Translations under genes and position numbers: made by a program
Shown: in pieces, positions 19,207 to 64,000 of the stretch
Numbering within the stretch: the stretch's first letter is position 1
Layout of the letters: each line of letters begins with the position of its first letter
Notes under the pieces: model-generated
What the model saw: the letters and a program-made list of their open reading frames with translations, nothing else
Told to the model about the DNA's origin: nothing
The model's database searches: none
IMG/VR virus record: IMGVR_UViG_3300009008_000017
Coordinates: 34,086 to 98,085 of that record
From: a virus
DNA: 64,000 nt
Strand: one strand, 5' to 3'

Positions 19207-19872
19207 ATGGCTAAAGTAGTAAAGAGATTTAGACCGAAATACGTGAAGCGTCTGAGAGACCGCCCGTCAGGCATAGGACAGACGGGTGCTAGCGCAACTT
19301 CAGATCGTCAAAATCCACCAGACATTCATCGTCTAGGTTGGGCCCCAAGGCCCTTTCCAAGATCGGGAATGACAGGCGAGCCTAATAGTTCGATTATGGG
19401 CAGAATGGGATCTGGCACACTCTCAGCATACACTGATACTGATCGAGAAGAGTTTGAAGATCAGTCTGGCATGCCTGGAAAAGGCGGGAACTATAAGAGT
19501 GATATGACAAGACAGTATATTAGCAAACTAAAGGCGCGCCCAGTAATTGGATTACCTGTAGGCCCTATCGGAGAATCAGAGCTTCGCGAAGTAATACGAG
19601 GAATGATAGCCGATCTCAACGAAGACCCCATGGGAAGAGAAGCTTTCAATTATGAGATGCTTAGAAGCCAAGAAGAAGACGACGAAGAAGAGGACGACGA
19701 AGATGATCTTGATGAGTTCTCTGGGGCAGGTGCAGTCGCGGGATTTACACTACCTTTAGGCGCTTCCAATCACCCGTCTACCCTGAAATCTCGAGGAGAT
19801 TTTACTGCCAAAATGTACGGCGGAGAGCGTGTGAGAACTATTAAATTACAGCGAATGAAATTGACTGATTAA
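19207..19872 (+). CDS. Acidic protein with an internal LR-helix motif
   Basis: I do not recognise this 221-residue protein. The start MAKVVKRFRP at 19207 fits better than an upstream in-frame start inside the previous gene. A basic N-terminus is followed by a Gly/Arg/Pro-rich linker, then the helix ESELREVIRGMI (123-134), then a run of Asp/Glu (156-170). Helix plus acidic stretch is also seen at the N-termini of the proteins at 51487, 57815 and 63824, so it may share their location or partner. Confidence 0.75.
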   Translation: MAKVVKRFRPKYVKRLRDRPSGIGQTGASATSDRQNPPDIHRLGWAPRPFPRSGMTGEPNSSIMGRMGSGTLSAYTDTDREEFEDQSGMPGKGGNYKSDMTRQYISKLKARPVIGLPVGPIGESELREVIRGMIADLNEDPMGREAFNYEMLRSQEEDDEEEDDEDDLDEFSGAGAVAGFTLPLGASNHPSTLKSRGDFTAKMYGGERVRTIKLQRMKLTD

Positions 19873-19875
19873 TCA

Positions 19876-19904
19876 TTGAACATCCTTGCATGCTAGGTTA
19901 GAAT
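19876..19904 (+). promoter_or_regulatory. Sigma70-like promoter of the SSB-UvsX operon
   Basis: TTGAAC (19876-19881), a 17-nt spacer and TAGAAT (19899-19904) lie in the gap before the SSB gene. A good ribosome site (acaaggag) follows before the ATG at 19937. Confidence 0.65.
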
Positions 19905-19936
19905 ACACCTGACCATCAAGCTACAAGGAGAAAAAG

Positions 19937-20743
19937 ATGGCTATTGATTTTGATGCGATTCGTCGCAAGGTTGCTCAACTTTCTGGCAACGGACGTCGAG
20001 GCTCTGCCTTTTGGCGCCCAGAAGAGGGTGAGCACACCGTTCGGATTGTGCCCTTCACCGATAACGACGGGCAACCTTTTAAAGAGCGTTGGTTCTACTA
20101 CAATGTAGGTGAGAACCGCGGCATTCTGGCACCGAAGCAGTTCGGCAAGCCCGATCCCATTCAGGAGCTGATCAACAAGCTTCGTGATGAAGGCTCGCCC
20201 GAGTCGGCTGAGCTCTGCAAGCGCCTCTATCCCAAGATGCGTGCATACGCTCCGGTTGTTGTCCGCGGCGAAGAAGACAAGGGCACCCAGCTCTGGTCGT
20301 TCGGCAAGATGGTCTACCAGGACATCCTCAACATTATGCTTGACCCCGACTACGGTGATATCACGGATCCTCTAGAAGGTCGTGACATCAAGGTGACCCT
20401 GTCCAAGCAGCCTGGTCAAAACTGGGCCAAGACGTCAGTCATGCCTCGAGGTAAAGCAACTAAGCTTTCCGGTGACGACGACAAGATTAAAACGTGGACT
20501 TCTACCATTCCTAACTTGGATGAGATCTATTCTCTTGAGTCGTATGAAGAGATTGAAAAGAAAGTCAATGACTGGCTTAACGGCTCTTCAGCGGCAGACG
20601 ACGACGGCATGACCGGCGGGTCCTCCACCAAGACTACAACTACAAGTGCTCCCACTACTGAAAGCACTACCAAAACCACCACTGAGTCGAAGTCATACAC
20701 TTCACTCGATGACGCGTTCGCTGATCTACTCGGCGACGACTAG
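19937..20743 (+). CDS. Single-stranded DNA-binding protein (gp32-like)
   Basis: The 268-residue protein has the gp32 layout. A basic N-terminal LAST-like arm (FDAIRRKVAQLSG) comes first, then an OB-fold core (FWRPEEGEHTVRIVPF, LWSFGKMVYQDILNIM), then a Ser/Thr-rich linker and an acidic tail ending DDAFADLLGDD for partner binding. T4 gp32 binds zinc through one His and three Cys. Here only one Cys is visible in the core, so the zinc site appears lost. It coats single-stranded DNA at forks and recruits UvsX and helicase. It leads an operon with uvsX directly behind. Confidence 0.87.
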   Translation: MAIDFDAIRRKVAQLSGNGRRGSAFWRPEEGEHTVRIVPFTDNDGQPFKERWFYYNVGENRGILAPKQFGKPDPIQELINKLRDEGSPESAELCKRLYPKMRAYAPVVVRGEEDKGTQLWSFGKMVYQDILNIMLDPDYGDITDPLEGRDIKVTLSKQPGQNWAKTSVMPRGKATKLSGDDDKIKTWTSTIPNLDEIYSLESYEEIEKKVNDWLNGSSAADDDGMTGGSSTKTTTTSAPTTESTTKTTTESKSYTSLDDAFADLLGDD

Positions 20744-20751
20744 GAGAAGAG

Positions 20752-21939: not shown

Positions 21940-22400
21940 GCCTATACATCAAAGTAAAAAAGACACATCCGGACGCAGTAATCCCGCGCCAAAAAGTTGG
22001 TGATGTGGGGTGGGACCTTACCGCAGTCGAAGATGGAACCATTCAGCCTGGAAAAGTTGCAGTAGCACCCACAGGCTTGATGTTAGCTGAGAATCCTTTT
22101 GCTAACGATATTCACAACCAGATCTTGCTTAAGATCGAGGGTCGAAGCGGCCTAGCTAGCAAGCACTGTGTTTTCCCAGTAGGAGGCATAATCGACCCCA
22201 GCTACCGCGGAGAGATGGGTGTGATGCTCTACAATGGTGGAGATACTCCTTACGAGTTCAAGAAGGGTGACAGAGTTGCTCAGATTGTCGTTTATGAGGT
22301 CCATGCAAAAACTATGAGCAATAAAACATGCTTCATGGAAGCAGACACTGTACGCACATCTGAGCGAGGTAGTAAAGGTTTTGGCTCCTCTGGAAGATAG
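21936..22400 (+). CDS. dut: Trimeric dUTPase
   Basis: All five conserved motifs are present in 154 residues: GDVGWDL (22-28), GRSGL (69-73), GGIIDPSYRGE (83-93), GDRVAQI (111-117) and the C-terminal P-loop-like RGSKGFGSSG (144-153). The enzyme hydrolyses dUTP to dUMP, keeping uracil out of DNA and feeding ThyX. The start is TTG, coupled to the uvsX stop. A second, unrelated dUTPase-type protein is encoded at 29092. Confidence 0.95.
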   Translation: MSLYIKVKKTHPDAVIPRQKVGDVGWDLTAVEDGTIQPGKVAVAPTGLMLAENPFANDIHNQILLKIEGRSGLASKHCVFPVGGIIDPSYRGEMGVMLYNGGDTPYEFKKGDRVAQIVVYEVHAKTMSNKTCFMEADTVRTSERGSKGFGSSGR

Positions 22401-23337
22401 ACCTGTCCTCATCTTCGACGCGATGAACCTGTTTCTACGTGTCTATTCGGCAAACCCGTCGATTAGCAAGCACGGTCATCACGTCGGAGGTGTGGTCGGT
22501 TTCTTAAAGTCGATGCGCAACATCATAGATCGCTTTAGCCCTAGGCAGATCTATGTTGTGTGGGAAGGCGGAGGTTCTTCTAGGAGAAGATCCATCTACC
22601 CGGAATATAAGAAGGGTAAAAAGCCAGCTCGAATGAACAAGTTTTATGAGCAGGACATTCCCGACACTCAGCAGAATCGAAATAAGCAGATTGCTAGCTT
22701 AATTAGCATGATGAAAAAGATGCCCATCTGCCAGCTCTACGTCGGTGACTGTGAGGGCGACGACGTCATTGGTTATCTCTGCAAGTATAAATTACGTGAT
22801 CTGCCCAAGGTGATAGTGTCCTCAGATCAGGATTATTACCAGCTCTTAAATGATAATACAAGAATCTTTCGCCTGGGGCGCAAAGAGATCGTAACTCGCG
22901 ATCACATTCCTGATCTTTTAGGTGTGAGCGCTAATAACTACTGTGTTGCTAAAGCGGCAGTCGGTGACAGCTCCGACAACATCGCCGGGATCAAAGGTGC
23001 CGGCTACAAGACAATGGCTAAAAGATTTTCTTTCCTTGCTGACGATGAAGAAGCTGACATACAAAAAATATTTGAGTATGCTTCTGCACACGCAGAGGGA
23101 AAAATTAAAATCTACCGAGAGATAGCGGACAACTTTGACATCTTGGAACGTAACTGGCGCCTGACATATTTAGATTCGCGAAATTTAGCGGCGGGCCAAG
23201 TGAATCAAATCGAACAAATCGTAGATACATTTGAACCAAAGAGGAATAAGATCGGGATGATGAGAGATCTGATTGCTGAAGGCATCCAAAACTTTGACGT
23301 CGAATCGCTTTTCCTTAGCTTTACTTACCTAGATTAA
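22381..23337 (+). CDS. 5'-3' exonuclease / flap nuclease (T4 RNase H-like)
   Basis: The 318-residue protein carries the FEN/RNase H acidic centres: VLIFDAMN near the N-terminus, GDCEGDDVIGYL, SSDQDYYQLL, and GDSSDNIAGIKGAG with its helix-hairpin DNA-binding motif. T4 RNase H (305 aa) is the nearest model. It removes RNA primers and flaps on the lagging strand. It starts at TTG inside the end of dut (20-nt overlap), within a continuous uvsX-dut-nuclease-helicase operon. Confidence 0.9.
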   Translation: MAPLEDRPVLIFDAMNLFLRVYSANPSISKHGHHVGGVVGFLKSMRNIIDRFSPRQIYVVWEGGGSSRRRSIYPEYKKGKKPARMNKFYEQDIPDTQQNRNKQIASLISMMKKMPICQLYVGDCEGDDVIGYLCKYKLRDLPKVIVSSDQDYYQLLNDNTRIFRLGRKEIVTRDHIPDLLGVSANNYCVAKAAVGDSSDNIAGIKGAGYKTMAKRFSFLADDEEADIQKIFEYASAHAEGKIKIYREIADNFDILERNWRLTYLDSRNLAAGQVNQIEQIVDTFEPKRNKIGMMRDLIAEGIQNFDVESLFLSFTYLD

Positions 23338-23347
23338 GAGGTTCTAC

Positions 23348-24772: not shown

Positions 24773-24775
24773 AAG

Positions 24776-27244: not shown

Positions 27245-27264
27245 TTTAATTAAAAGAGGTAAAA

Positions 27265-28821: not shown

Positions 28822-28834
28822 AACTTAGTATAAT
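28806..28834 (+). promoter_or_regulatory. Weak promoter candidate before the gene at 28854
   Basis: TATAAT (28829-28834) is clear. At 17 nt upstream the -35 region reads ATATAAAC, which matches the GTGTAAAT motif at only half its bases. Confidence 0.35.
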
Positions 28835-29090: not shown

Positions 29091-29091
29091 A

Positions 29092-33199: not shown

Positions 33200-34156
33200 A
33201 TGAAAACGCTACCACAGTTGTTCCAGATCCAGGACCAGTTCTCAGAACTATTCCAAAAGAAGGATGACCTTTCCTTGGAGGAGAGGGAGCGGCTAACACA
33301 GGAGTTCTCTCTAGCACTCCACAGTGAGGTGTCAGCCCTGATCAGTGAGATCAACTTTAAGAACCATCATCAGGATCGTAAGCAGGTGGTGGAGAACAGC
33401 ATCCTTTTCGAGGGCGTTGATGTCTTCCGATATCTCTTAGCTATCTTAAATCTCTGGGGCTTCAGTGCAGAGGATTTCTCGCAGGCTTTCGACGACAAGG
33501 AGAACTACCTCCAGGTCAAGTATGTCAAGAACGCGCAGAAGTGGCAAGGCCAACCGGTCATCCTCGTGGATGCCGACGATGTGATTGTGGAGTTCCGGAA
33601 GGGCTACAGTGAGTATCTTAATGCTATGGAAGGCATCGATGTTGACGTCAACTCCAAAGAATATTATTTCACCAACGGCATTCCAAAGGACCGCTACAAT
33701 CCTGAGCAACTATTCCAGGATTTCATCGATCAGCGACGCCTCAGAGATTTAGAGCCTATCACGCCCACAATTCAAGCAATCAACGACTTGTACGACCAGG
33801 GCTATTGGATCCAGATTCTTACAGCTAGACCTGACTGGAACAAAACATGCCAGTATGACACTTATACTTGGCTTGAAAATAGCGGCCTAAAATTCCACAA
33901 AATTGACTTTTCGCCTGAGAAGATGATTTGGGCTGCAAATAGTGAGTATTACGATTCTGAGTCGATTGTGTGCGCTATTGATGATAGTTCCAAGCACACT
34001 ATGGAATATGCTAAGCATGGGATCAAAGTGGCATCGCCAGTCACGCCTTATAACGAGGAGTTGCGAGGGGTAGAGAACGTCATTATGTTCGAGACAAAGC
34101 AAGAACTTGCTGATATCATTAAACAGTTCTCACTCCGGCGCATATTTAGCGTATGA
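33200..34156 (+). CDS. All-alpha NTP pyrophosphatase fused to a HAD 5'-nucleotidase
   Basis: The 318-residue protein has two parts. Residues 1-112 look like the dUTPase-2/MazG fold (HSEVSALISEI, then FEGVDVFRYLLAIL and AFDDKENYL-KY), homologous to the gene at 29092. Residues 118-310 are a HAD phosphatase of the 5'-nucleotidase type: ILVDADDVIVEF (nucleophile Asp and second Asp), ILTARPDW, and CAIDDSSKH. Together they could turn a dNTP into a deoxynucleoside in two steps. The next gene also encodes a HAD enzyme and overlaps by 4 nt. Confidence 0.72.
   Translation: MKTLPQLFQIQDQFSELFQKKDDLSLEERERLTQEFSLALHSEVSALISEINFKNHHQDRKQVVENSILFEGVDVFRYLLAILNLWGFSAEDFSQAFDDKENYLQVKYVKNAQKWQGQPVILVDADDVIVEFRKGYSEYLNAMEGIDVDVNSKEYYFTNGIPKDRYNPEQLFQDFIDQRRLRDLEPITPTIQAINDLYDQGYWIQILTARPDWNKTCQYDTYTWLENSGLKFHKIDFSPEKMIWAANSEYYDSESIVCAIDDSSKHTMEYAKHGIKVASPVTPYNEELRGVENVIMFETKQELADIIKQFSLRRIFSV
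34141..34148 (+). promoter_or_regulatory. Late-promoter-like element before the tagged HAD protein
   Basis: CATATTTA lies inside the end of the upstream gene, only 4 nt before the ATG at 34153. Distance and lack of a ribosome site suggest leaderless or coupled translation. Confidence 0.4.
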
Positions 34157-34824
34157 TGCGTATTACAGTTGGACAATTACGAACCCTTATAAAGGAAGCA
34201 ATGCAGGAGCTGAATCCTGATCTTGACCCAGATTGCAAGAGCTTTGCAGTATTTGATTTCGATGAGACGCTGGCACTGACGGATTCGAAAATTTTGATAA
34301 CAGATGACCAGGGAAAAAAGATCCGATCTCTTACCCCCGCGCAGTATGCTCTTTATGTTCCCGAGCCGGGAGAGAACTTTGACTTTAGTGAATTTGAAAT
34401 TGTCAAAGACGGTAAACCAACTGCTTTGATGGATGTTCTGCGAGATGTGGCTGCCTGCGGAACCACCGCCGCGGCCATTTTAACAGCTCGAGGCCCTAAA
34501 TCACAAGACCCTATTAGAGAGTTTCTTGCAGACATGGGGGTAAAATTGCAGATAATCGACACTGTAAACACCTCAGATCCCCAAGCCAAAGCCCGGAAGA
34601 TAAAAGGCTACGTTAGATCTTATAGCCCACAAGTCTTGCACTTTTTTGAGGATTCACCTAAGAATCTCGCTGCAGTAAAGAAGATGGCAGAGTCTGATCG
34701 TGAATTTGAGAACGTAGATGTGATTTTGCATAAGATGGTGGATGGCAACAAGGTAGACGTCGAGCACGTCGTGTATAAAGGATTAAGCGCAATCGCAGCT
34801 CCTGAAGATTCAAAACACATTTGA
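34153..34824 (+). CDS. HAD-family phosphatase with an N-terminal LR-helix tag
   Basis: Two ATGs in tandem (34153, 34156) give 223 or 222 residues. Residues 3-22 (ITVGQLRTLIKEAMQEL) match the tag found on the proteins at 50800, 51487 and 61058. The catalytic domain follows: VFDFDETLAL (nucleophile Asp), ILTARGPKS, and FFEDSPKNL. The enzyme is probably a polynucleotide or nucleotide phosphatase, comparable to the T4 PseT phosphatase half, but no kinase domain is attached. The tag and a CATATTTA element suggest late synthesis and perhaps packaging. Confidence 0.72.
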   Translation: MMRITVGQLRTLIKEAMQELNPDLDPDCKSFAVFDFDETLALTDSKILITDDQGKKIRSLTPAQYALYVPEPGENFDFSEFEIVKDGKPTALMDVLRDVAACGTTAAAILTARGPKSQDPIREFLADMGVKLQIIDTVNTSDPQAKARKIKGYVRSYSPQVLHFFEDSPKNLAAVKKMAESDREFENVDVILHKMVDGNKVDVEHVVYKGLSAIAAPEDSKHI

Positions 34825-42002: not shown

Positions 42003-42010
42003 CATATTTA
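42003..42010 (+). promoter_or_regulatory. Late-promoter-like element before the ligase-like gene
   Basis: CATATTTA lies 16 nt upstream of the ATG at 42027, with a caggag site between them. Confidence 0.5.
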
Positions 42011-42026
42011 GAAACAGGAGAAAATA

Positions 42027-43160
42027 ATGGGCGGTGCAGCTGGACATATGGCACATCCTTTCGATCTTCCCGCAGTTCGAAATGGAAAAGACCTGATCAA
42101 GTTCTTTGACGACGCGTCAGAATACCTTGCCAATAATGAGTCGAGCGTAAAGATCGACGGCGTCAATGTAAGCTTTAAGCTCGTCGACGGGCCGAACGGC
42201 AAAGAGTTCGCGATGGATCGTGGAAGCTTAAGCCCGCTGGATATCGGTGGCATCACTCGAGCGAAACTTGACCAACGCTTTCCAGAGGGTCACGGTATGA
42301 TCGCGGCAGGAAACGAGATGCTCGATCTGCTTAACACTGCACTCCCGGACATTCAATCAGAGCTTGAAGAGCTCGGAATGTACGACGATCCGACAATGTT
42401 CCTAAACACGGAGTATGTTTCAGGCAAGACCAATGTGACAGATTACGACCAGAAGTTTCTGGCCATTCACGGTCTCAACCAGTTCTACGAGAAGATATCA
42501 CGCATCAAGAGTAAAGCGCGTCGACCAGGCGCTCCACGACCGGAAGGGGTAAAAGCTCCTAGTGCGGAAGTAGCATATGACAAATCCGTCATGAAGCGTC
42601 TTATTGACAAGCTTGGAGCTGCAGCCAAGAAGCAAGGCTTCGAGGTTTACGGTGATGTCCCGGCTGCTCTCAAAGGAGATGCTCAGACTGCTGATTTCTC
42701 CGGCACTCTCTCGTCGCCGTTTGAGGTGGTGAGGTCCGAGGGCGAAGCGGAAACTAAACCCTTGTCCCAATGGCTTCAGGCAGCAAACCACCCGGGAGTT
42801 GAAAAGATAACTTTAGGTAGCGGCAAGAAGGTGAATGCTCTCAGCAAAGAGGTCTATATGTCCATTATCGATGGAGTGCCCGTTGATGAGCTTGTCCCAG
42901 ACTCAGGCCAACAGCAGACTGCCATTGACGCAGCAGTCATCTACCATGCTACTCGAATGCTAGGAAACGATATCCTTGATGTGCTTACCTCACCAATGGG
43001 CGATGTTCGCGCTCACGAAGGTGTGGTTCTCCGAGACGAGCGCTTTGGTTCACGCCCAGTAAAGATCACGGGTGATTTTATCGTAGGTGGCTTGGAATCT
43101 GCGTTCCAGAAGAACGAAAGCCTTCTCAGGAACTACGTTAAAGCTATTCTTAAATCTTAA
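42027..43160 (+). CDS. Nucleotidyltransferase of the RNA/DNA ligase superfamily
   Basis: The 377-residue protein has the covalent nucleotidyltransferase motif I, SVKIDGVNVSF with Lys42-x-Asp44-Gly45, and late motifs HEGVVLRD (330-337) and VKITGDF with Lys346, as in RNA ligases and mRNA capping enzymes. The opening MGGAAGHMAHPFDL is unlike T4 Rnl1/Rnl2. It likely seals RNA or DNA after AMP transfer. The last 14 residues (ESLLRNYVKAILKS) match the LR-helix tag and the end of the convergent gene at 43157. Confidence 0.72.
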   Translation: MGGAAGHMAHPFDLPAVRNGKDLIKFFDDASEYLANNESSVKIDGVNVSFKLVDGPNGKEFAMDRGSLSPLDIGGITRAKLDQRFPEGHGMIAAGNEMLDLLNTALPDIQSELEELGMYDDPTMFLNTEYVSGKTNVTDYDQKFLAIHGLNQFYEKISRIKSKARRPGAPRPEGVKAPSAEVAYDKSVMKRLIDKLGAAAKKQGFEVYGDVPAALKGDAQTADFSGTLSSPFEVVRSEGEAETKPLSQWLQAANHPGVEKITLGSGKKVNALSKEVYMSIIDGVPVDELVPDSGQQQTAIDAAVIYHATRMLGNDILDVLTSPMGDVRAHEGVVLRDERFGSRPVKITGDFIVGGLESAFQKNESLLRNYVKAILKS

Positions 43161-43828
43161 TCGATCGCGGTTCGGATGAACGCGCGCAACAGGCTTTCCT
43201 GTAAAGCTTTCCCAGATAGGATGTCAAAGATCGCCTGCTTTGAAGCATCACTCAGCTGGAAGGGAAGCATGTCTTTAAATGCCTCTTCATTCCCGTCAAC
43301 CAGGTGGCGCCGCATATCGGTGCCGCTTACTGGGACAGTTTCATTGCGATCAAGGGCGACTTTGTCCAGCTTCTCAAGTACGAAATCTTGATCCAAATAC
43401 CTCAGCAACTGTTCTTCGCTGTAGTTGTTTTCGATATCAACTGGGTCCGAGTAGATAGTAAAGTGATCTTCAGAGTTTTGCTCAGAGGAATTCTGTAGAA
43501 GCTCATACGCTTTGCGAATAGGCGCGCCCCCGGTGCCTAGAAGATGAAGCGTGACGTTGCTAGGTAGTATTTTGCCTAGATGATCCTCCCAGACTTTTCG
43601 CATGTCATCTCCGTAGATCGGGTGCACCCCGGGCTTCGGTACTTCGATTTTTCTTGCGCCCTGCTTGACCGTCCGCGTGTCGCTTGGATCTTTAATCTTT
43701 CTAACGCCCCTGCTAGACAGAGAGACGAAGAGCTCCACTTTGTCGTTTTCCTTTGCAGCCTTTTCGACCATAGCATGATGCCCGGCGTGATAAGGCTTAA
43801 AACTACCTGCGACTATTCCGACTTTCAT
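43157..43828 (-). CDS. NMN adenylyltransferase-like / cytidylyltransferase-fold protein
   Basis: This is the only minus-strand gene here (223 residues). The HIGH-superfamily site is GSFKPYHAGHH (8-18, H14-x2-H17), with a C-terminal SGTDMRRHL in place of the ISSTxxR motif. It could make NAD from NMN, or transfer a nucleotide to another phosphate. Its 3' end overlaps the ligase-like gene by 4 nt and both proteins end in the same motif (here ESLLRAFIRTAID). NAD made here could feed a ligase or offset host NAD loss. Confidence 0.78.
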   Translation of the reverse strand: MKVGIVAGSFKPYHAGHHAMVEKAAKENDKVELFVSLSSRGVRKIKDPSDTRTVKQGARKIEVPKPGVHPIYGDDMRKVWEDHLGKILPSNVTLHLLGTGGAPIRKAYELLQNSSEQNSEDHFTIYSDPVDIENNYSEEQLLRYLDQDFVLEKLDKVALDRNETVPVSGTDMRRHLVDGNEEAFKDMLPFQLSDASKQAIFDILSGKALQESLLRAFIRTAID

Positions 43829-43843: not shown

Positions 43844-43851
43844 ATAAATAT
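43844..43851 (-). promoter_or_regulatory. Late-type element on the minus strand
   Basis: Read on the minus strand the sequence is CAATATTTATG, carrying the ATATTTAT core, about 15 nt before the start at 43828, with GGAG between. Confidence 0.4.
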
Positions 43852-43863
43852 TGAATCGAATTT

Positions 43864-50763: not shown

Positions 50764-50771
50764 CATATTTA
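50764..50771 (+). promoter_or_regulatory. Late-promoter-like element
   Basis: CATATTTATT lies 28 nt before the ATG at 50800, with a cggag site between. Confidence 0.55.
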
Positions 50772-50787
50772 TTCCTGATAGTGCACC

Positions 50788-50853
50788 CGGAGTGTTTTTA
50801 TGAATCTCACTGAAAATGATTTACGCCTTCTGGTTCGCAGTATTCTACGGGAA
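50788..50853 (+). repeat. Direct repeat, copy 1 (ribosome site plus LR-helix tag)
   Basis: This 66-nt segment is 57/66 identical to 51475-51540. It spans the CGGAGTG ribosome site, the ATG and the first 18 codons. Most changes are synonymous or conservative. Confidence 0.85.
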
Positions 50854-51426
50854 GAATCAGCAAAACCTGGCCCGTCCAGCGTGAACAAAGCAGATTTTTA
50901 TCAGAAGCTCCCTGTGGAGAAGCAAGATGATCTGCAAAAAGCTGTCGATAAGTTTGCTAAAGCACAAGTCCCCACGCTTGTCAATGTCGCAAAAAACATG
51001 TCAGGAAAGTCAGGTAAAAAAAGCTCAGAAGTACTCGCATCTTTTCTAAAAAATCCTACGCTTAAAATTCCTCCAATGAAGCTAGGAAGAAATTTAAAAC
51101 TAGGTGGTGAGTTTGGAGCTGGTAATAATTCAAAAGTAAAAGCTGTCGTTGAAAAGGGAAAGCTCAAAGGGTTTACGTTCTCAGGCGAGCTTGGCCCAGG
51201 CTTGGAAATTAAAAATGTTTTCGTACAGACCCCTACGATCTCTCTCAGCAAAGAAGCGACAGCCGAGCTAGACATGGGTCTAACGCAGGACATGGCTAGC
51301 GCAAAAGCAGGCCTAAACTATAAGATTCCAGGCGGATCTATAACAGGTGCAGCAGCAGGAAATATAGCTCTCGATTCATCCAAGTCCGATTATGAATTCT
51401 CTATTGGCTTAAGCAAGAAGTTCTAA
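50800..51426 (+). CDS. LR-tagged protein with a probable beta-rich C-terminal domain
   Basis: The 208-residue protein opens NLTENDLRLLVRSILRE, the tag shared with 51487. The middle is Lys/Ala-rich helix. From 90 on it is alternating strands (LGRNLKLGGEFGAG, GFTFSGELGPGLEI, AELDMGLTQDMASA, YEFSIGLSKKF) that end in an aromatic residue, as beta-barrels do, but no signal peptide is present. I do not recognise a family. A virion-associated role fits the tag and late promoter. Confidence 0.72.
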   Translation: MNLTENDLRLLVRSILREESAKPGPSSVNKADFYQKLPVEKQDDLQKAVDKFAKAQVPTLVNVAKNMSGKSGKKSSEVLASFLKNPTLKIPPMKLGRNLKLGGEFGAGNNSKVKAVVEKGKLKGFTFSGELGPGLEIKNVFVQTPTISLSKEATAELDMGLTQDMASAKAGLNYKIPGGSITGAAAGNIALDSSKSDYEFSIGLSKKF

Positions 51427-51453: not shown

Positions 51454-51463
51454 CATATCTATT
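51454..51463 (+). promoter_or_regulatory. Late-type element variant with adjacent palindrome
   Basis: CATATCTATT differs from the consensus by one base. It overlaps a perfect inverted repeat ATCTAT-TAAA-ATAGAT (51457-51472). The ATG at 51487 follows 23 nt later. Confidence 0.35.
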
Positions 51464-51474: not shown

Positions 51475-51540
51475 CGGAGTGTTTTTATGAAGCTCACTGA
51501 AAACGATTTACGCCTTCTGATTCGCAACATCCTGCGCGAG
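51475..51540 (+). repeat. Direct repeat, copy 2 (ribosome site plus LR-helix tag)
   Basis: This is the second copy of the 66-nt repeat at 50788-50853. Beyond it the two genes are unrelated, so a tag cassette has been duplicated onto a different protein. Confidence 0.85.
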
Positions 51541-52893
51541 CAGGACGAAGAAGAAGTTGAAGAAGAAACCGAAGAAGAGGCTGAGGCCGAAGAAGCGGTC
51601 GTTGAACCCGAAGTCAAAGAACCCGAGGTTGATCCTGAGCTCCAGTCCCTAGCAAAGGAATATGAAGACGCAAGTTCATTTAAAGCGAAAGCTGAGGCTA
51701 TAGCTAATATCTTGCGTCGCCCTGAGTTCTTTGGAACTGATATCGTAGGGCCCACCAAAGGGAAGCAGGTAAAAGGCAAGAATTCCATGCGGTTCGGAGT
51801 AGGTGCAGGTGCAAAAGACAAGCATGATTTTAAAGACATCGCTGATAAGATCTATGCTGTCTTGGCTCCAGAAAAAGTAAATCCAGTTCGCGTGTTCGGT
51901 CCCGATACTGGCCCCAATGAGAGCGGAACTTACACATCTTATGTTCTTCCTGACCTGGACAACCTAATGTTCACGTTCGGAGGAGCAGGTGAGACATCTG
52001 GACAACGCAAAGGTGGCTACGAATATGAGATGAACGTGATCTTCCCGAACCTGAAGGATGCAGGTTTAGAAGCAGAGCTTGGCGCAGATAATACAATCTC
52101 AGATGTTTACGTTGTGACTAAGGATGGCAAGCTTGGTATTGAGGTAAAACTCCCTGACGCACAGCTCGGTGAACCCACACTCAAGTATAATATTAAAGAT
52201 AAATCTTTCTTCCCGTCAGTTGAGAAGGGCATTAACGTAGATGTAGCTAATCTGATCAATGCTGACGACACAAGCACAGACGCTTATAACCGAATGGTGA
52301 TTATTCGTGATAAGGTCAACACACAAAGATCAGCTGACGGAGAAGATTCTGAGCTTTCACCCTTCCAGGACATTATCGATAAGATCACTAGAGCCGAGTA
52401 TGACCAGATTGTTAAGCCTGCCCTGCGCGCAGACACAGAAGCAGGAAGTGATATCAGCGGAGTGAAGATCGGTGAGTTTAAGATCGGTTCTGACCGCATG
52501 AGGGACTACTACCTTGGAAAGAAAGCAGGCCTAGTTCAAGTGAAGGGTAAGGGACTCTATCATTTGCATCCGGATTTTGAGATCAAGATTAAAGACGAGG
52601 ATGGCAACGAGAAGAGAACCATCCTCTTCGACTTCAGTGATCAAGTCTCAGGCGGAGTCCAGTTTCGAAACATGAAGGGCAACCGATATGGCATCAGATC
52701 AGACACAAGAAGTGCTCCTCTTAAAAAGATCCGACAGTCCCCCATCGATCTTGACAGCGAAGCTGACAGAGAGGCATTCGCAGCAGTTGTGCCTGACATG
52801 ACCTTTCCAGATCCAAAATCTTTGATGGATGACAAATCCCTAGCAGAGTCAGTTCAAAACCGCTGGCAACTTTTGGCCGGCATAAAAGAATAA
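51487..52893 (+). CDS. LR-tagged probable PD-(D/E)xK nuclease
   Basis: The 468-residue protein has the tag KLTENDLRLLIRNILRE, then a poly-Glu/Asp stretch (19-50). A nuclease-like core follows: GGYEYEMNVIFPNL (helix with Glu), SDVYVV (Asp206), GIEVKL (Glu219-x-Lys221) and AQLGEP, the order of the PD-(D/E)xK fold. It may cut host or competitor DNA, or process phage DNA. The tag suggests delivery in the capsid. The C-terminal 250 residues are unrecognised. Confidence 0.65.
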   Translation: MKLTENDLRLLIRNILREQDEEEVEEETEEEAEAEEAVVEPEVKEPEVDPELQSLAKEYEDASSFKAKAEAIANILRRPEFFGTDIVGPTKGKQVKGKNSMRFGVGAGAKDKHDFKDIADKIYAVLAPEKVNPVRVFGPDTGPNESGTYTSYVLPDLDNLMFTFGGAGETSGQRKGGYEYEMNVIFPNLKDAGLEAELGADNTISDVYVVTKDGKLGIEVKLPDAQLGEPTLKYNIKDKSFFPSVEKGINVDVANLINADDTSTDAYNRMVIIRDKVNTQRSADGEDSELSPFQDIIDKITRAEYDQIVKPALRADTEAGSDISGVKIGEFKIGSDRMRDYYLGKKAGLVQVKGKGLYHLHPDFEIKIKDEDGNEKRTILFDFSDQVSGGVQFRNMKGNRYGIRSDTRSAPLKKIRQSPIDLDSEADREAFAAVVPDMTFPDPKSLMDDKSLAESVQNRWQLLAGIKE

Positions 52894-56797: not shown

Positions 56798-56812
56798 TAA
56801 GCTGAAAGAGTT

Positions 56813-56820
56813 CATATTTA
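56813..56820 (+). promoter_or_regulatory. Late-promoter-like element of the SOD-to-tubulin block
   Basis: CATATTTATT lies 20 nt before the ATG at 56841, with gggag between. It likely drives genes from 56841 onward. Confidence 0.55.
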
Positions 56821-56840
56821 TTACAGCATGGGAGTGCTCT

Positions 56841-57125: not shown

Positions 57126-57126
57126 T

Positions 57127-57813
57127 ATGAAGAAGAAAGATGTGGCAAAAAATATCCGTGAATCTTTGGGTATGAGAAATACTGAGAGCCTCGATGAGGC
57201 GCTAGTAGTTCAAGCAAAGCCGTTTGCTATTCCAACAGAAGCCCTCTCAGGCGAAAACATTAGAAATCATTACAGCCTGTACGAGACTTACGCAAAAGAT
57301 TTTAACAAAATAAGCGCAGAACTCGATGGTGCAGACAGATCTAATGCTTCATCAAATCACTCAGCGTTTAGAAGCTTGAAAATAGATGAAGTCTACAATT
57401 TAAATGCCACGTATTTGCACGAGCTTTACTTTGCTAACATCGGTGATTTGCAGAGCGAAATTACAATGGATACGCTTTCTTTCATGCGCCTTGAAAGAGA
57501 CTTCGGTTCTTTTGACGCATGGCAAATGGATTTTCTTGCTTGCGCAAAGTCATCTCGCTGCGGCTGGGTTATCACTGGATTTAATGTTTTTACTCACACT
57601 TACATGAACTATGTTGTTGATCTTCATTCTCTTAACATGCCCGTTGGTGTCATTCCCGTAATTGTTCTGGATGTCTGGCAGCATGCTTACTACAAGGACT
57701 ACTTAAAGGATGTATCTGCATATACAGTCAACATGATGAAGGAATTAAACTGGAACGTGATTGAGCAGAGGTTTGGGCGAACTGATAAGATCGCCCAGGT
57801 TATGAGAGGTTAA
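57127..57813 (+). CDS. Fe/Mn superoxide dismutase-like protein
   Basis: The 228-residue protein follows the Fe/Mn SOD fold, with the four metal ligands in place. His48 is in RNHYSLYETYAK, His98 in NATYLHELYF, and Asp182 and His186 in DVWQHAYYKDY. FGSFDAWQMDFLACAKSSRCGWV and ELNWNVIEQRF are also family features. Gln185 replaces the usual Glu of WEHAYY and the first helix is one residue short, so activity is not certain. The N-terminus (DVAKNIRESLG) loosely resembles the LR tag. Late position suggests it may be a virion protein that removes superoxide. Confidence 0.78.
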   Translation: MKKKDVAKNIRESLGMRNTESLDEALVVQAKPFAIPTEALSGENIRNHYSLYETYAKDFNKISAELDGADRSNASSNHSAFRSLKIDEVYNLNATYLHELYFANIGDLQSEITMDTLSFMRLERDFGSFDAWQMDFLACAKSSRCGWVITGFNVFTHTYMNYVVDLHSLNMPVGVIPVIVLDVWQHAYYKDYLKDVSAYTVNMMKELNWNVIEQRFGRTDKIAQVMRG

Positions 57814-57814
57814 G

Positions 57815-58441
57815 ATGAACGACAAAGATCTAAGAAAATTGATTGCAGAGGAATTTGCTGCAATAATATCAGAACAAGAAACTCAAGAAGTGCCTACAGG
57901 TGATGAACCTGATGTGCCTGCCCCAGATTCAGTAGATGTCCAGATTGATGAGCTTTTGCTGCAATATGAAAAGCTTTCTCTTCCTGACGAAGAAGAGGTT
58001 CTTGAAGAAGTTTTGACTACTACTTCTCTTCGGTTTATTTTAGAACAAGAAGAAGTTGATGTTGAAGTCGACGTCGAAGAAGAGGGCGAAGAAGAAGGCG
58101 ACGATGAGGGTGGAGAAGAAGCTGAAGCTGAAGAGGAAGATGAAGAAGTAGAGGTTGAGGAAAAAATGCCTAAGCTTGACGTCATTACTTTTGCAACTAA
58201 AGTGGCACGCCTCGCAGAGATCCCTGAGAAGGTTTTAGATCTAAAAGACGCGATCATCAATCGCGCTATACATTATCTTCAGACAAATTACGATGAGAAT
58301 GTCGCAAAAGAATTTGAGACTGCTCTAATGGACAAGTTTCAGCTGGCCGTGCCGGAAGAAGAAGTTGAAAAGCTTGTTGCTTCTGATTTACCCGCACCTC
58401 CAGCAGTTGGAGCAGGCCCAGGAGGCGGCGCCGGAGGCTGA
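57815..58441 (+). CDS. LR-tagged, very acidic protein
   Basis: The 208-residue protein opens NDKDLRKLIAEEF and has a 50-residue acidic run (about 85-128), a helical domain (about 130-190) and a Gly/Ala/Pro tail. It resembles scaffold or inner-capsid proteins in composition. No family is recognised. Confidence 0.72.
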   Translation: MNDKDLRKLIAEEFAAIISEQETQEVPTGDEPDVPAPDSVDVQIDELLLQYEKLSLPDEEEVLEEVLTTTSLRFILEQEEVDVEVDVEEEGEEEGDDEGGEEAEAEEEDEEVEVEEKMPKLDVITFATKVARLAEIPEKVLDLKDAIINRAIHYLQTNYDENVAKEFETALMDKFQLAVPEEEVEKLVASDLPAPPAVGAGPGGGAGG

Positions 58442-58947: not shown

Positions 58948-58955
58948 GGCGAAAA

Positions 58956-59548: not shown

Positions 59549-59565
59549 ATTGATATGGAGATATC

Positions 59566-60588
59566 ATGAGCGAATTTGATTTTATTGATGATTATGCTGA
59601 GCCTCAAGCTAATCTTGAGACTCTTGCTGAGAATGCTGCAGAGTCAGCCATTAACATTGCCTTCATTGGCGTCGGCGGCGGAGGATGCAAGATTGCCAAG
59701 GCTTTCTTAGATCTAGGCTTTACCAAGACAATCCTGCTGAACACAACAACTAAGGATTTCCAGACAGGTATTAATGAGGACCACCTTGTTGCTCTCCCTG
59801 GTGCTGATGGTCTGGCAAAGAACATTGAGCTCGGTCGACAAGTTCTGTCTGAGAACAGCGCCTTTGTAGAAGACGCTCTTCGTACGAAGTTAGGTAAAGT
59901 TGATTGGCTCTTCGTCTGTGCAGGCGGAGGTGGTGGTACAGGATCATCTGCTTACACTCTGGACCCCGTTTTCAAGAGATTCCTAGAAACCAATGAGGCA
60001 ACTGGTAAAGTTGTCTACGTTATCTCCCAGCCTACTGCACAAGAGAAGCTTAATTCTACCATCAAGAAAAATGCAGCATCCCTTCTGAAGGATGTTCAAA
60101 AAGATCCCTACGTTGTTCTTGACAATGAGAAACAGCTCAATGCTTTCCGCGGCCGCGTTGGTGTTCTAGGTCTTTACCCGGCAGCAAATAAAGCTTTTGC
60201 CAAGATGTTTTGGCAGCTTCTTCGTCTTGCTGACGAACCCTCACCCGTTCAAGTGTTTGACGGCAAGGATCTTGAGAGATTTTTAAGCTCACCCGGCCGT
60301 ATGGTTGTAGGTTCTTCGATTTGTGCACCAGGACCTAACTTAGGTGTGCAGCTCTACCAGACTTGCCTAAATAATTCTCCTTGCCCGACGCCAAAGGGGC
60401 ATGCTGAGACAGGTGTTCTTCTGCAAGTAATCACTGAAGATCATGCTAACGATGTAAGTATCAGCGGTCACCTTGAAGCATCAACTGCCTACGTGGGCGG
60501 AAGAACCAATACGCTTTTCTCAGGCATTTATGTTCGTGATGATCTTCCGGGACTCGTGACAGTATTAGCTTTAGGCGGCTTGAAGTGA
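59566..60588 (+). CDS. FtsZ/tubulin-family GTPase
   Basis: The 340-residue protein has the nucleotide-binding loops of tubulin/FtsZ: FIGVGGGGCKIA (T1, 33-44), CAGGGGGTGSS (T4, 118-128) and LDNEKQLNAF (T6). The T7 catalytic loop region reads VFDGKDL (230-236), keeping D-x2-D though the leading Asn is Val, so filament-linked GTP hydrolysis is possible. It is closer to FtsZ than to eukaryotic tubulin by eye. Phage relatives such as PhuZ centre phage DNA in the cell. It is placed among lysis and virion genes here. Confidence 0.87.
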   Translation: MSEFDFIDDYAEPQANLETLAENAAESAINIAFIGVGGGGCKIAKAFLDLGFTKTILLNTTTKDFQTGINEDHLVALPGADGLAKNIELGRQVLSENSAFVEDALRTKLGKVDWLFVCAGGGGGTGSSAYTLDPVFKRFLETNEATGKVVYVISQPTAQEKLNSTIKKNAASLLKDVQKDPYVVLDNEKQLNAFRGRVGVLGLYPAANKAFAKMFWQLLRLADEPSPVQVFDGKDLERFLSSPGRMVVGSSICAPGPNLGVQLYQTCLNNSPCPTPKGHAETGVLLQVITEDHANDVSISGHLEASTAYVGGRTNTLFSGIYVRDDLPGLVTVLALGGLK

Positions 60589-61010: not shown

Positions 61011-61021
61011 CAGTGCAAGAC

Positions 61022-61029
61022 CATATTTA
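61022..61029 (+). promoter_or_regulatory. Late-promoter-like element
   Basis: CATATTTATT lies 28 nt before the ATG at 61058, with a ccggag site between, the same spacing as at 50764. Confidence 0.57.
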
Positions 61030-61057
61030 TTTCGACTCACTGTTACCGGAGTAGATA

Positions 61058-62872
61058 ATGGCCGTTAAGATCACTGAAACTGCCTTGCGAGAATTTGTAA
61101 GGAACATGCTTCTAGAAGAAGCAGGAGACGATGCTCCCGCAGAGGAGACAAATCCACCTGCAGTATCTGAAATACCGATGGATAAACCGGATACTCCTTT
61201 AGAGGCAGATCCCCAAGTTGTTGATAATGAGCTTGGACCACCCACTGCAGATCCTTCCTACGTTCCCGATGGAATGCCTGAGTTAAAAGTTGCAGTTGGA
61301 AAACTTCTAGATGATGTTCCTGACTCTGCAATCGGAACTGCTTATAAAATAGTTCGAAAATCCCTGGATAACCTGCACAGCGTTCTGAGGCAAAGGTCTG
61401 AGATCAGCCCGGGAGTAGAAGTTGTCATACCCGGTAGCTTCGAGCCTGGTGATCCTATTTCTACTGAGGAACCCGCTGATATCCTTGACTTAAGCGAAAG
61501 CACAAGCCTGGAAAGATTAGTATACTTTATTTCTGAAGCACCTTATGAGCCCGGCCGAGTAAGCATGGATAGCTCTTTAGTTAAAGGAGTTTCCGATCCC
61601 ACAGATCCTTTTGCGAACATAGAATTCGCCGAAGAAGATGAAGAGTTCGAAGAAGAAGAAATAGAAGTTTCTCCCGCATCCCCGGGCCCTCGAAGAGTTG
61701 TAGATGCTCCAAAGGGAGATGTAACAGCGGCCGGATTCGGCACTGATGACGAACAACCCGATTCTGATCTTGAAAAAATGATCGGAAGCCAAATGTCCTC
61801 AGCGCAAGCTGAAAAGATGCGAAAAGATCAGGAGGCTGCAGAAAAAGCTCAGGCTGTTATTGATAAAGAACAGGGTGTAGTTTCTCAGATGCTAGTAGAT
61901 AAAAGCCTAGCTAAGAGAATCGAGATCGCAAAAGAAATGTTTGCCAGCAAGGCAAGTGCTATAGATGCAGCACTCGCGAAAGGTGACGATCTAGATACAG
62001 TTCTTGATTTTGACGAGCTTGAGAGAGTTCAAGAAGAGCTTGAGTCAACTGATGCGTTCACCCAGTCAATGCAGGCAGGATCAGCAAAGTTTAGTGAAAT
62101 GTCTGACGAGCTTAAGTCACGCTATGCAGATGTTTTTCTCGGCGGTGGTGAGCCAATGAAGTCTAGTGTGTTTAGAAACCTTCAAGATTCTGCATTCATG
62201 AAATTTATGCTGGGCTTAGCTATTGGTCCCGATGTATTTGATGAGAAGTTTGTTGAATTTATAATCTCTCCCCCAGAGGATGCTAAGAAAATTAGAAGCT
62301 TCCTGATAAAGCACACTGATGTGGCGAGAATAATGTCGAACCCCACAGCAGGCGGTGTCGAAAAAGTCTTGGACCAGCTTCGTGAAAAATCCGCTGGGAG
62401 CGACCTAGTCGACCAGTACAAACATCTTGTAACTCTTTACTTGGCTAATGATATTGATTTCCCTGGAGCAAAATCTTCAAAGTTTCACTTCAACAAAAAA
62501 GTTGGAAACGATGCTCTAGAGAAAGCAGTATCTGGCCTTATTCGGAGGGGCGAAAAAGAAGCCTACGATAATCTTGAACAGCTTCTTAACGATCCAAAGA
62601 ACAAGAAGACAGTTGCAGGCCACTTAGGCAAGGGCTGGAAGATTGAACCCTGGCGGTCCAAAGAAGCTGAAGAGGAAGTACCAGCCCTAGAACCCCAGCC
62701 GGACGCTAGTCCTGCCGCGACAATTAAACGCTCAGCAGGCGGCAGAACTTTCCGCCGACGAGCAGCATCTGAGATATCTGAATCCATGACACCTGCAGAT
62801 GCTATCTTGCAATCTGCTCCGGTAAATCCCGACCTAGACAAAGCCCTCCTTCTTGTGAAGGGCATTGCATGA
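61058..62872 (+). CDS. LR-tagged large virion-associated candidate
   Basis: The 604-residue protein opens KITETALREFVRNMLLEEAG. An acidic, Pro-rich disordered region (20-230, with an EEDEEFEEEE run) is followed by a helical domain (about 230-545) and a Pro/Arg-rich tail. I do not recognise a family. The tag's MLLEE could be a prohead-protease site, if one exists in this phage. Confidence 0.72.
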   Translation: MAVKITETALREFVRNMLLEEAGDDAPAEETNPPAVSEIPMDKPDTPLEADPQVVDNELGPPTADPSYVPDGMPELKVAVGKLLDDVPDSAIGTAYKIVRKSLDNLHSVLRQRSEISPGVEVVIPGSFEPGDPISTEEPADILDLSESTSLERLVYFISEAPYEPGRVSMDSSLVKGVSDPTDPFANIEFAEEDEEFEEEEIEVSPASPGPRRVVDAPKGDVTAAGFGTDDEQPDSDLEKMIGSQMSSAQAEKMRKDQEAAEKAQAVIDKEQGVVSQMLVDKSLAKRIEIAKEMFASKASAIDAALAKGDDLDTVLDFDELERVQEELESTDAFTQSMQAGSAKFSEMSDELKSRYADVFLGGGEPMKSSVFRNLQDSAFMKFMLGLAIGPDVFDEKFVEFIISPPEDAKKIRSFLIKHTDVARIMSNPTAGGVEKVLDQLREKSAGSDLVDQYKHLVTLYLANDIDFPGAKSSKFHFNKKVGNDALEKAVSGLIRRGEKEAYDNLEQLLNDPKNKKTVAGHLGKGWKIEPWRSKEAEEEVPALEPQPDASPAATIKRSAGGRTFRRRAASEISESMTPADAILQSAPVNPDLDKALLLVKGIA

Positions 62873-63255
62873 ATAAGCGCTTCTTAAAGGAGCTTAGTAG
62901 TGAACTTAGGCAGGGTGCTGCTGAAAAGCAGCAGTATACTTCGAGGCTTCTTTCTGAGATGCCAATGCCTGTCCTTCCTAGAGAAAATTTTAGATCAAGA
63001 TGGGAAGTTTTGGAGTCACCAAAGCGTCTTGCACGATCATATAGCTTCCTAAGTAGCAAAAAAATGCAGGAATTTATAAATGAGCTTTTAGAATATCAGG
63101 GAAAAACAAATCACGCTGGTGACATTAGAATCAATCATGGCGATGTAATGATTGAAGTCTATACCAAGGACTTGAACTGCCTTACAGAGCTAGATTATGA
63201 GTACGCCAAGATGGCTGATCTTATCTACCAGGACCTGGAGTATTACGGTGATTAA
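62869..63255 (+). CDS. Pterin-4a-carbinolamine dehydratase-like protein
   Basis: The 128-residue protein shows the PCD/DCoH fold pattern: WEVLE, LARSYSFLSSKKMQEFINEL, NHAGDIRINHGDVMIEVYTKD and CLTELDYEYAKMAD. The active-site histidines are altered: HHP is NHA and the TH motif is TK, so enzyme function is doubtful. It may serve as a structural dimer module. It overlaps the upstream stop by 4 nt. Confidence 0.58.
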   Translation: MNKRFLKELSSELRQGAAEKQQYTSRLLSEMPMPVLPRENFRSRWEVLESPKRLARSYSFLSSKKMQEFINELLEYQGKTNHAGDIRINHGDVMIEVYTKDLNCLTELDYEYAKMADLIYQDLEYYGD

Positions 63256-63616
63256 TCAGAACGAAGAGAGGTTTTTCGCTTCCGAAAGCCTCCAGGGAAC
63301 TTTGACACCCGATTTACTAGAAGGAAGATCTACAGCAGGTTCTTTTGCGTTAATGGCAGGAGGCCAGGAATATGAGCTTCATTCTTATGATGAAGGGCCA
63401 ACCGGCGTCACTATGATTTTTAATTGCAGCGCTGATATGTTGCCGGCAATACTTGACGCAAATGCATCGGGTATTAATTTGCGCTGCGGAAAAAATGAAA
63501 TAACCCGGGATCTTTCGAGATATGAGATCAGCTGGGATATAATTAGAATTGGGTCATCTAACTACAAGGTGACACTATCTTTTTCGAAGAACCAGGCAGG
63601 AATAATAAATGGCTAA
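63248..63616 (+). CDS. Hypothetical protein, beta-rich
   Basis: The GTG at 63248, overlapping the previous stop, gives a compact 122-residue protein. It is mostly strands (GSFALMAGG, TGVTMIFNC, YKVTLSFSK). No family is recognised. Confidence 0.65.
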   Translation: MINQNEERFFASESLQGTLTPDLLEGRSTAGSFALMAGGQEYELHSYDEGPTGVTMIFNCSADMLPAILDANASGINLRCGKNEITRDLSRYEISWDIIRIGSSNYKVTLSFSKNQAGIING

Positions 63617-63827
63617 CGAGAAATCAAATCCAAAGCCCGCTGAAAAAAATACGCAGGCCACTCCTCCGGGACCGTTTGATAAGTTTATTGATGACCAGCT
63701 CAAGAGAGAGCAGAAGAATATAGCGCGCCACAAAAGCGTAGCCGATCAAGGTGAAACACCGCAGCAGAAATACAACAGGCTTTACCGAGAAAATCCCGGT
63801 AACAAGACGGTCTGGAGAAAAAAATGA
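63609..63827 (+). CDS. Small basic hypothetical protein
   Basis: The 72-residue protein is polar and Pro/Lys/Gln-rich, with a central basic helix (FIDDQLKREQKNIARHK). It overlaps both neighbours by 4-8 nt. Not recognised. Confidence 0.68.
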   Translation: MANEKSNPKPAEKNTQATPPGPFDKFIDDQLKREQKNIARHKSVADQGETPQQKYNRLYRENPGNKTVWRKK

Positions 63828-64000
63828 GTAAGAAGATAACAACAGGATCTCAGCTTGAGAAGTTCCTGAAGCGCCTTGTAAGTGAGAGCATGGACCAGGC
63901 CCAGGAAGAGCTTGAAAACTTAAGCGAAAATTCTATTCCGCATCTTCGAGAGCAAGAAGAAGCCGAAGAAGAAGTTGAGGAAGAAGAAGTTGAGGAAGAA
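63824..64000 (+). CDS. LR-tagged acidic protein, N-terminal part
   Basis: The frame runs to the window edge, giving 59 residues. It opens SKKITTGSQLEKFLKRLVSES, a divergent form of the tag, followed by a Glu-rich stretch (EEAEEEVEEEEVEEE). The ATG overlaps the upstream stop. The layout matches 51487 and 57815. Confidence 0.72.
   Translation, partial: MSKKITTGSQLEKFLKRLVSESMDQAQEELENLSENSIPHLREQEEAEEEVEEEEVEEE

Follow-up and report, generated by a model that had tools for sequence, protein, structure and literature searches.

Nine proteins encoded in a 64,000-nucleotide stretch of viral DNA (hereafter the window; positions 34,086 to 98,085 of the 98,085-base IMG/VR virus record IMGVR_UViG_3300009008_000017) carry a short amphipathic helix, here called the LR helix, and the same helix recurs on many proteins of related viral contigs. 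Its recurrence, its positions, the Glu residue with which it closes, its linkage to head genes, its co-occurrence with a C-terminal box of the scaffold and the enrichment of a late-promoter-like motif before its genes are all read from the sequences, and they suggest that the LR helix is, quite probably, a capsid-targeting sequence (CTS), through which its bearers would be packaged into the head and from which they would there be cleaved. The best reading, by analogy, is that this tag works like the CTS of phage T4 though its sequence differs. An initial annotation of the window had proposed a tag that loads enzymes into the capsid from either terminus. The packaging part of this proposal is supported by the excess of the helix at protein ends, by the presence of a gp21 protease, by tag ends of the gp21 type, by a corresponding site in the capsid protein and by the late-motif enrichment; the tag does occur at both termini, but its bearers go beyond enzymes and some copies are internal. 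The viruses with the tag are large, uncultured and aquatic, infect bacteria and form a family within a T4-like clade.

The viral record and its relatives

Just upstream of the window, the record contains the T4-type head genes. A PHROGs search of the record detected the large terminase TerL (phrog_2, E 3.1e-47), the portal (phrog_213, E 2.5e-72), a gp21-type protease (phrog_207, E 1.3e-52) and a gp23-type major capsid protein (phrog_138, E 9.2e-71), that is, a T4-like head module. The phage also encodes a scaffold, a gp22-like protein recognised from its position, its acidity and its conservation (PHROGs reached no better than E 0.089). By gp21, the nearest isolates in phage records are Microcystis phage Mel-JY01 (46% identity) and Pelagibacter phage HTVC008M (44%), and many relatives are found in IMG/VR.

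Eleven related IMG/VR contigs were analysed in full length, and counts are over 12 contigs including that of the window (G000). One of them, G002 (235,681 bases), is of the same species as the window, with identical gp21 and 51487 proteins (open reading frames, ORFs, are designated by their first coordinate), and G000 and G002 were treated as one species. G000 is counted in the tallies of the untrained pattern and of N-terminal helices and absent from the training of the profile (see below); it was excluded, G002 being of the same species, from the tallies of the cut site, C-termini, late motif, body families, multiple matches and scaffold box. Genes were predicted with a simple caller, so that start sites are approximate, and the minimum protein size was 60 residues for the N-terminal count, 80 for the C-terminal and scaffold-box counts and 100 for the cut-site count.

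Anchoring of the LR helix to protein ends

A 12-column profile of the helix was trained on 227 N-termini of other contigs, the window's species excluded, and used with a pass threshold of 9; an N-terminal hit is a helix that begins within the first 14 residues. Such hits were found in 244 of 2,567 proteins, against 5.2 expected from internal windows, a ratio that is somewhat inflated because the profile was itself trained on N-termini. In eight contigs, 1-8% of the proteins have the untrained pattern L[RK]xx[IVL][RK]xx[LMI] starting within residues 1-10, compared with 0.04-0.21% per 10-residue bin elsewhere. At the other end, the core is present in 25 of 2,134 proteins versus 5.2 expected. The view that the helix is a feature of protein ends, and not a motif scattered by chance, is thus borne out at both termini. 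After shuffling of N-termini a mean of 0.075 proteins pass the profile. Nor does the excess depend on gene calls: a DNA pattern for one form of the tag (class B) was found in at least 120 stretches of viral_contigs when it included the ATG and in none when GAA was substituted, and that for the other form (class A) in 44 and nine stretches, respectively. Chance or composition as the cause is ruled out by the internal windows, the shuffled N-termini and the GAA control. In genome_contigs, the class B pattern was present in eight stretches from five contigs of four metagenome-assembled genomes; one of these contigs equals in length (101,404 bases) an IMG/VR contig that has the pattern too.

The tag is about 14-26 residues long, mostly closes with [LI]-x-E, and has two consensus forms, MKxLRxYIRxILxE (class A) and MKITKRQLRRIIKEE...LxE (class B). 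Its load varies between contigs, being highest in G008 (57 of 322 proteins), G009 (49/261) and G006 (43/352) and lowest in G012 (1/85), so that up to 18-19% of the called proteins of one phage are tagged; tagged genes are often consecutive, in runs. The position of the tag can vary within one kind of protein: in HAD-like proteins it is N-terminal (window), internal (G008 11530, G006 89454) or C-terminal (G006 17057, identified as HAD by eye from its DFDDTL motif). At least two matches were found in 19 proteins, some of them surely by chance. A 1,054-residue ORF of G009 (G009:C1:78480-81644) has three scored copies of the tag between domains in addition to a tag-like leader, and each copy has [LI]xE after it; a segment of this protein and part of G006 33849 are both related to the body of the tagged protein G006 31913. 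From its sequence, the G009 protein is a candidate capsid-processed polyprotein.

Proteins behind the tag

The 236 tagged bodies of at least 40 residues fall into 166 sequence families, 137 of which are singletons; as in a CTS, a short N-terminal peptide is found on proteins with unrelated bodies. A homologue exists in the set for 103 of the 236, and for 58 there is a homologue that does not pass the profile, several of these having a weaker tag. For the family search, 120 of the 239 tagged proteins were chosen (at least 110 residues long and not across the border of a fetched stretch; G016, head-module orthologues and some of the shortest proteins were left out). They matched 14 Pfam families, one PADLOC family and at least 25 PHROGs, among them Fe/Mn superoxide dismutase, zeta-toxin-type kinase, HD domain, DUF192, PAP2, RNA polymerase ADP-ribosylase and a GroEL-like family; the member of the tagged set that matched phrog_832 was located.

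The ADP-ribosylase match is the tagged protein G008 174903-175760. T4 Alt falls under the same family name, and we refer to the G008 protein as Alt-like. Alt is described as a head protein that ADP-ribosylates the host RNA polymerase (PMC9958956, excerpt). The Alt-like homologue of G007 lacks the N-terminal tag and starts where the tag ends; a tag-like stretch at its residue 90 scores 8.7, slightly below the threshold. Likewise, G008 248446 is tagged and its relatives in G006, G009 and G010, about 50% identical, begin near the junction. The window encodes an Fe/Mn superoxide dismutase (Sod_Fe_C, 5e-17; found in nine of the 11 related contigs) with an N-terminal extension, proposed to be processed cargo, and all 10 contigs that encode the dismutase have [LIV][ND]E past its N-terminal helix (L or I in seven, V in three).

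A predicted cleavage site at the end of the tag

Within residues 8-26 counted from the Leu of the core, [LI]xE is present in 136 of 183 tag ends, compared with 25 and 39 in two windows of the body, again out of 183. No such excess is seen for [LI]xD (30 at tag ends, 39 and 41 in the body windows) or for Gln in place of Glu (17 against 21 and 22). Directly past the Glu, conservation drops near background. The capsid proteins of the clade have L[RK]E followed by Ala, Ser or Gln at the predicted end of the propeptide in 11 of 11 contigs; in the phage of the window this site reads LLRE then Q. In T4 (NC_000866), IPII and IPIII have IAE as the corresponding site, gp24 has LRE at residue 10 and gp23 has LTE at residue 65, and the published lengths of the T4 peptides, 10 and 65 residues, agree with the gp24 and gp23 letters (PMC9958956, excerpt). 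According to the work on phage SPN3US, the T4 and giant-phage proteases all cleave after glutamate (PMC5694885, excerpt). The tag is thus predicted to end at a gp21-type [LI]-x-E site, found in all but 47 of the 183 tag ends.

Linkage to head genes and to the scaffold

In 11 of 11 contigs, gp21 is followed, directly or after one ORF, by the gene for a tagged protein of 133-148 residues. More widely, among 72 gp21 loci with enough sequence, not all of them independent, 66 are followed within 2.6 kb by a tagged ORF, and 26 by two; of the six loci without one, at least one has a visibly tagged variant. In a structure model of the tagged head-module protein, residues 5-24 form a confident helix, which covers the tag and the predicted cut site LAE (residues 20-22), and disorder follows. 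No isolate relatives of this protein were found in phage records at the limits used.

A second link is a box of the RWxxLAGI type, with which the scaffold ends. Twenty-three proteins have it within their last 22 residues, where 0.49 would be expected by chance: the 11 scaffolds, one in each of 11 contigs, and 12 others. Of these 12, seven are N-terminally tagged, including the product of 51487 in the window (Fisher test, 4e-5, with a rounded denominator of 2,450).

gp21 was detected in 12 of 36 and in 10 of 22 contigs carrying the DNA patterns, and in 20 of 20 viral contigs with a tag pattern that are longer than 102 kb. Control contigs also carry gp23 (two of nine; two of the three longer than 120 kb), and for this reason the association is weak when taken alone. 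Twenty of the 24 gp21-negative contigs in the first set were viewed over their first 20 kb: 12 have many clade genes, and the other eight have 0-3 clade genes and no tagged protein in that stretch.

In three contigs, a small protein that is bS21-like by eye is encoded within the head module, in the interval between protease and scaffold (G007 64938-65159, G009 33596-33820 and G010 114553-114810); the corresponding head-module gene of Mel-JY01 (22183-22410) is annotated RpsU.

A late-promoter-like motif

The initial annotation had placed a CATATTTAT-like element before every bearer in the window or before its operon. With at most one mismatch, such an element does lie within 80 bases upstream of 34153, 42027, 43157, 50800, 51487 and 61058, and 57815 and 63824 are in operons behind 56841 and 61058, respectively; none was found for 19207. 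In G002, the same search found CATATTTAT before 18 of 284 genes: those for the portal, scaffold, adaptor, sheath and tube, one tail-region ORF, seven N- or C-terminally tagged genes, the lead gene of a tagged operon and four others. A broader form, ATA[ACT]TTA[TA], precedes 21 of 42 core genes (capsid, scaffold, portal, sheath), 29 of 76 N-terminally tagged, five of eight C-terminally tagged and 135 of 1,024 other genes, counting genes with their own upstream gap (tagged versus other, p = 1.8e-7). This form was chosen after inspection of several of these contigs; with a narrower motif the figures are 18 of 76 tagged against 126 of 1,074 (p = 0.006). At the level of operons, a late motif was found for 89 of 239 tagged and 509 of 2,332 other genes. 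A late motif before every tagged gene is thus rejected, and many tagged genes may not be purely late, because 150 of the 239 have no such motif in their inferred operon.

In G006, the broad motif stands before 45264, just ahead of an island of tagged genes at 31.9-44.4 kb. AACCTGTGTA was considered as a driver of the G006 islands and dropped, since an operon walk connected it with none of the 239 tagged genes and the late motif precedes the 31.9-44.4 kb island. A conserved motif of G006, mostly near AAATCTTAAAACCTGTGTAGA, is located 50-85 bases ahead of the start codons of 12 genes.

Comparison with known systems

The T4 CTS, found on IPII, IPIII and other proteins, resembles the LR helix in that a short N-terminal peptide precedes unrelated, fast-changing internal proteins and ends in an [LI]xE cut by gp21. 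The T4 internal proteins are diverse defence proteins in which the CTS alone is conserved (PMC3012670 and PMC9958956, excerpts), and CTS fusions bring foreign proteins into the T4 core (PMC9958956, excerpt). The two differ in sequence (MKTYQEFIAE in T4, the class A and class B consensus in the clade), in load (few proteins in T4, up to 57 of 322 here) and in position, which is N-terminal in T4 and also C-terminal and interdomain in the clade. Homology to the T4 CTS is not supported, the T4 internal proteins scoring negatively; as HTVC008M also lacks the tag set, membership by descent is not claimed.

A closer likeness in letters is found in the propeptide of T4 gp24 (MAKINELLRE, NC_000866), whose N-terminal position and LLRE end resemble the LR tags; this 10-residue peptide is removed by gp21 (PMC9958956, excerpt), but it is on a protein of the capsid shell and not on cargo. 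In the giant phages SPN3US and phiKZ, propeptides of packaged and ejected proteins are cut after glutamate by a gp21-related protease; several of these propeptides, however, exceed 100 residues, and the sites are A-x-E in SPN3US and S/A/G-x-E in phiKZ (PMC5694885, excerpt). Among the isolates nearest by gp21, Mel-JY01 has a scaffold that ends in a similar KLAGI box but no LR-tag set, only one of 43 genes in its first 50 kb passing the profile, with a membrane-like N-terminus; in HTVC008M one of 203 genes passes, and it encodes the RecA-like UvsX. The letters of the tag were absent from the literature collection searched, in which four strings were tried, and no paper joining marine metagenomes with a phage capsid-targeting sequence was found in that collection. 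New here are the different tag sequence, its use on up to nearly a fifth of the called proteins, its C-terminal and interdomain use, and a box common to tagged proteins and the scaffold.

Proposed function and alternatives

We propose that, while the head assembles, the LR helix would attach to the prohead's core of gp22-like scaffold, and that this binding would enclose the tag-bearing protein in the head and hence in the virion. Once active, the gp21-type protease would cleave tags at N-termini and between domains, just past their closing [LI]-x-E; the mature cargo would remain in the head and the cut tag would be cleared together with the scaffold digest. Copies at C-termini lack a cut site and would not be removed. 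The users of the system would be of two kinds: small proteins of the head core, whose genes lie between gp21 and gp22, and a large, fast-changing cargo (superoxide dismutase, ligase-like, NMNAT-like, HAD-like and Alt-like proteins and many small proteins) that would presumably be delivered into the next host along with the DNA. It is conceivable, if somewhat doubtful, that the LR helix and the RWxxLAGI box form a position-independent loading code that packs up to about one-fifth of the proteome (the 57 of 322 proteins in one phage) for injection, with some cargo polyproteins, such as G009 78480, split into effectors by the prohead protease inside the capsid. The 239 natural N-terminal examples, with the C-terminal and internal copies, make a directly testable sequence rule. 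If the rule is true, the proteins that an uncultured phage delivers into its host could be read from sequence alone, and the tags would be a ready set of short peptides with which to load proteins into phage heads in laboratory systems.

Several observations weigh against a capsid-targeting role. Two window proteins that are not head proteins, DnaE-like and DnaB-like, score like the weaker copies, and some family matches of tagged proteins, e.g., the GroEL-like one, may rest on a native helix; the core motif alone thus does not prove targeting. The helix of the window dismutase fails the profile, far under the threshold (-10.8). Besides the tag ends without [LI]xE and the operons without a late motif noted above, no late motif was found ahead of the G006 island at 53-58 kb, and gp21 was not detected in 24 of 36 and 12 of 22 contigs with the DNA patterns, the viral ones among them being all at most 101,404 bases long. 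T4 ipI, ipII and ipIII score -13.6, -7.5 and -10.1 with the profile, and HTVC008M has gp21, scaffold and capsid genes without the tag set. Finally, up to 57 different packaged proteins would far exceed what is packaged by T4.

The helix could instead serve solely to build the prohead core, its bearers being scaffold helpers like T4 gp67 and gp68 that are mostly digested and not delivered. The most conserved bearers are indeed small head-module proteins, the window bearers 57815, 63824 and 61058 are acidic, as core proteins are, and the scaffold has a similar helix in its own N-terminal region; yet some bearers are enzymes or resemble enzymes (superoxide dismutase, Alt-like, HAD-like, kinase-like) and the bodies are spread over 166 families, and we consider this explanation unlikely. 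Still less probable is a role unrelated to the capsid, in which the helix would dock to another phage or host partner, for instance the membrane or a complex for replication or transcription. The helix is amphipathic, with a hydrophobic moment of 0.55 (0.36 for shuffled sequences), and such helices are general binding devices; the tagged genes without a late motif would also fit such a role, but it does not account for the closing [LI]xE, the adjacency to gp21, the co-occurrence with the scaffold box or the late-motif enrichment; the presence of gp21 in all 20 of the longer tag-bearing viral contigs also speaks against it, though T4-type head genes are common in large contigs. We regard as very improbable a mobile expression leader, i.e., a promoter and start cassette in which the shared N-terminus is conserved through copying and not for the function of the peptide. 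Identical residues do use the same codon above chance (0.38-0.60 versus 0.31-0.48), and 50800 and 51487 share leader and upstream bases. Copying at the DNA level is weakened, however, by codons that vary widely and by copies at C-termini and between domains; in addition, hydrophobic spacing is kept, and so, mostly, is the closing Glu.

Individual copies in the window

The profile was run over 19,369 12-mers from 68 called proteins of the window. All nine helix sites claimed by the initial annotation exist, and seven are among the nine top-scoring 12-mers (Table 1); the two unclaimed ones are in the DnaE-like protein (10.7) and the DnaB-like protein 23348 (9.7). The remaining two claimed copies, in 34153 and 63824, are missing from the caller's set, the former because its start was called downstream and the latter because its ORF is open at the end of the window, and they were scored separately. 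The score of 34153 holds provided that ATG 34153 is the start. A second in-frame ATG, 48 bases further on, comes with a better ribosome site, AAGGAAGCAATG; CATATTTAG terminates 3 bases ahead of ATG 34153 (window 34141-34209). With two candidate starts, tagged and untagged HAD-like forms may therefore both be made. The copy in 63824 is present but marginal; the ORF has 225 residues in G002 and is related to the tagged protein G008 198948.

The leaders of 50800 and 51487 are almost identical and so are not independent copies; bases upstream are also common to both. Relatives of 57815 are tagged in G009, G015 and G016 and untagged in G010. A C-terminal copy similar to that of the ligase-like protein is found in relatives in G002, G009 (117133) and G010 (33978) and absent in G007 and G008; the copy of the NMNAT-like protein is kept in G002, G009, G010, G015 and G016 and absent in G006 and G007. 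The relatives of 19207, in which the helix is internal, are 76-residue proteins in G015 and G016 that start with the tag. The bodies of 51487 and 42027 gave no usable match among solved structures, no isolate relatives of 51487 were found in phage records at the limits used, and the structure model of 50800 was too poor for use (pLDDT 35).

Table 1. Copies of the LR helix and associated elements in the window (profile scores where available)
Feature	ORF or gene	Coordinates	Strand	Score or basis
N-terminal LR-helix tag, ends ILRE then E	50800-51426	50800..50853	+	profile 13.5
N-terminal LR-helix tag, ends ILRE then Q	51487-52893	51487..51540	+	profile 14.2
C-terminal box NRWQLLAGIKE (scaffold C-terminus: NRWALLAGIK)	51487	52858..52890	+	box count
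N-terminal LR-helix tag, ends IISE	57815-58441, acidic	57815..57874	+	profile 14.6
N-terminal LR-helix tag, ends LLE	61058-62872	61058..61117	+	profile 11.5
N-terminal LR-helix tag, ends MQE, start codon uncertain	34153-34824, HAD-like	34153..34209	+	profile 18.7
Weak LR helix near N-terminus	63824, acidic	63824..63889	+	profile 8.9 at residue 15
C-terminal LR helix NESLLRNYVKAILKS	42027-43160, ligase-like	43113..43157	+	profile 12.1
C-terminal LR helix QESLLRAFIRTAID	43157-43828, NMNAT-like	43160..43201	-	profile 9.7
Internal LR helix GESELREVIRGMIADLNE	19207-19872	19570..19623	+	profile 8.5
N-terminal extension, ends LDE then A	57127-57813, Fe/Mn superoxide dismutase	57127..57198	+	proposed processed cargo
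Late-promoter-like element	before tail sheath gene (337)	293..301	+	
Late element CATATTTAT	before tagged 50800	50764..50772	+	
Late-promoter-like element, 1 mismatch	before tagged 51487	51454..51462	+	
Late-promoter-like element	before operon 56841-57127-57815	56813..56821	+	
Late element CATATTTAT	before tagged 61058	61022..61030	+	
Late-promoter-like element, 1 mismatch	before C-tagged 42027	42003..42011	+	
Late-promoter-like element, 1 mismatch	before C-tagged 43157	43844..43852	-	
Late-promoter-like element, 1 mismatch	before 34153	34141..34149	+	

Close to the tagged genes, the window also encodes a Tubulin/FtsZ-like GTPase (59566-60588; Pfam Tubulin, E 1.2e-07, 32.6 bits against a cut-off of 33).

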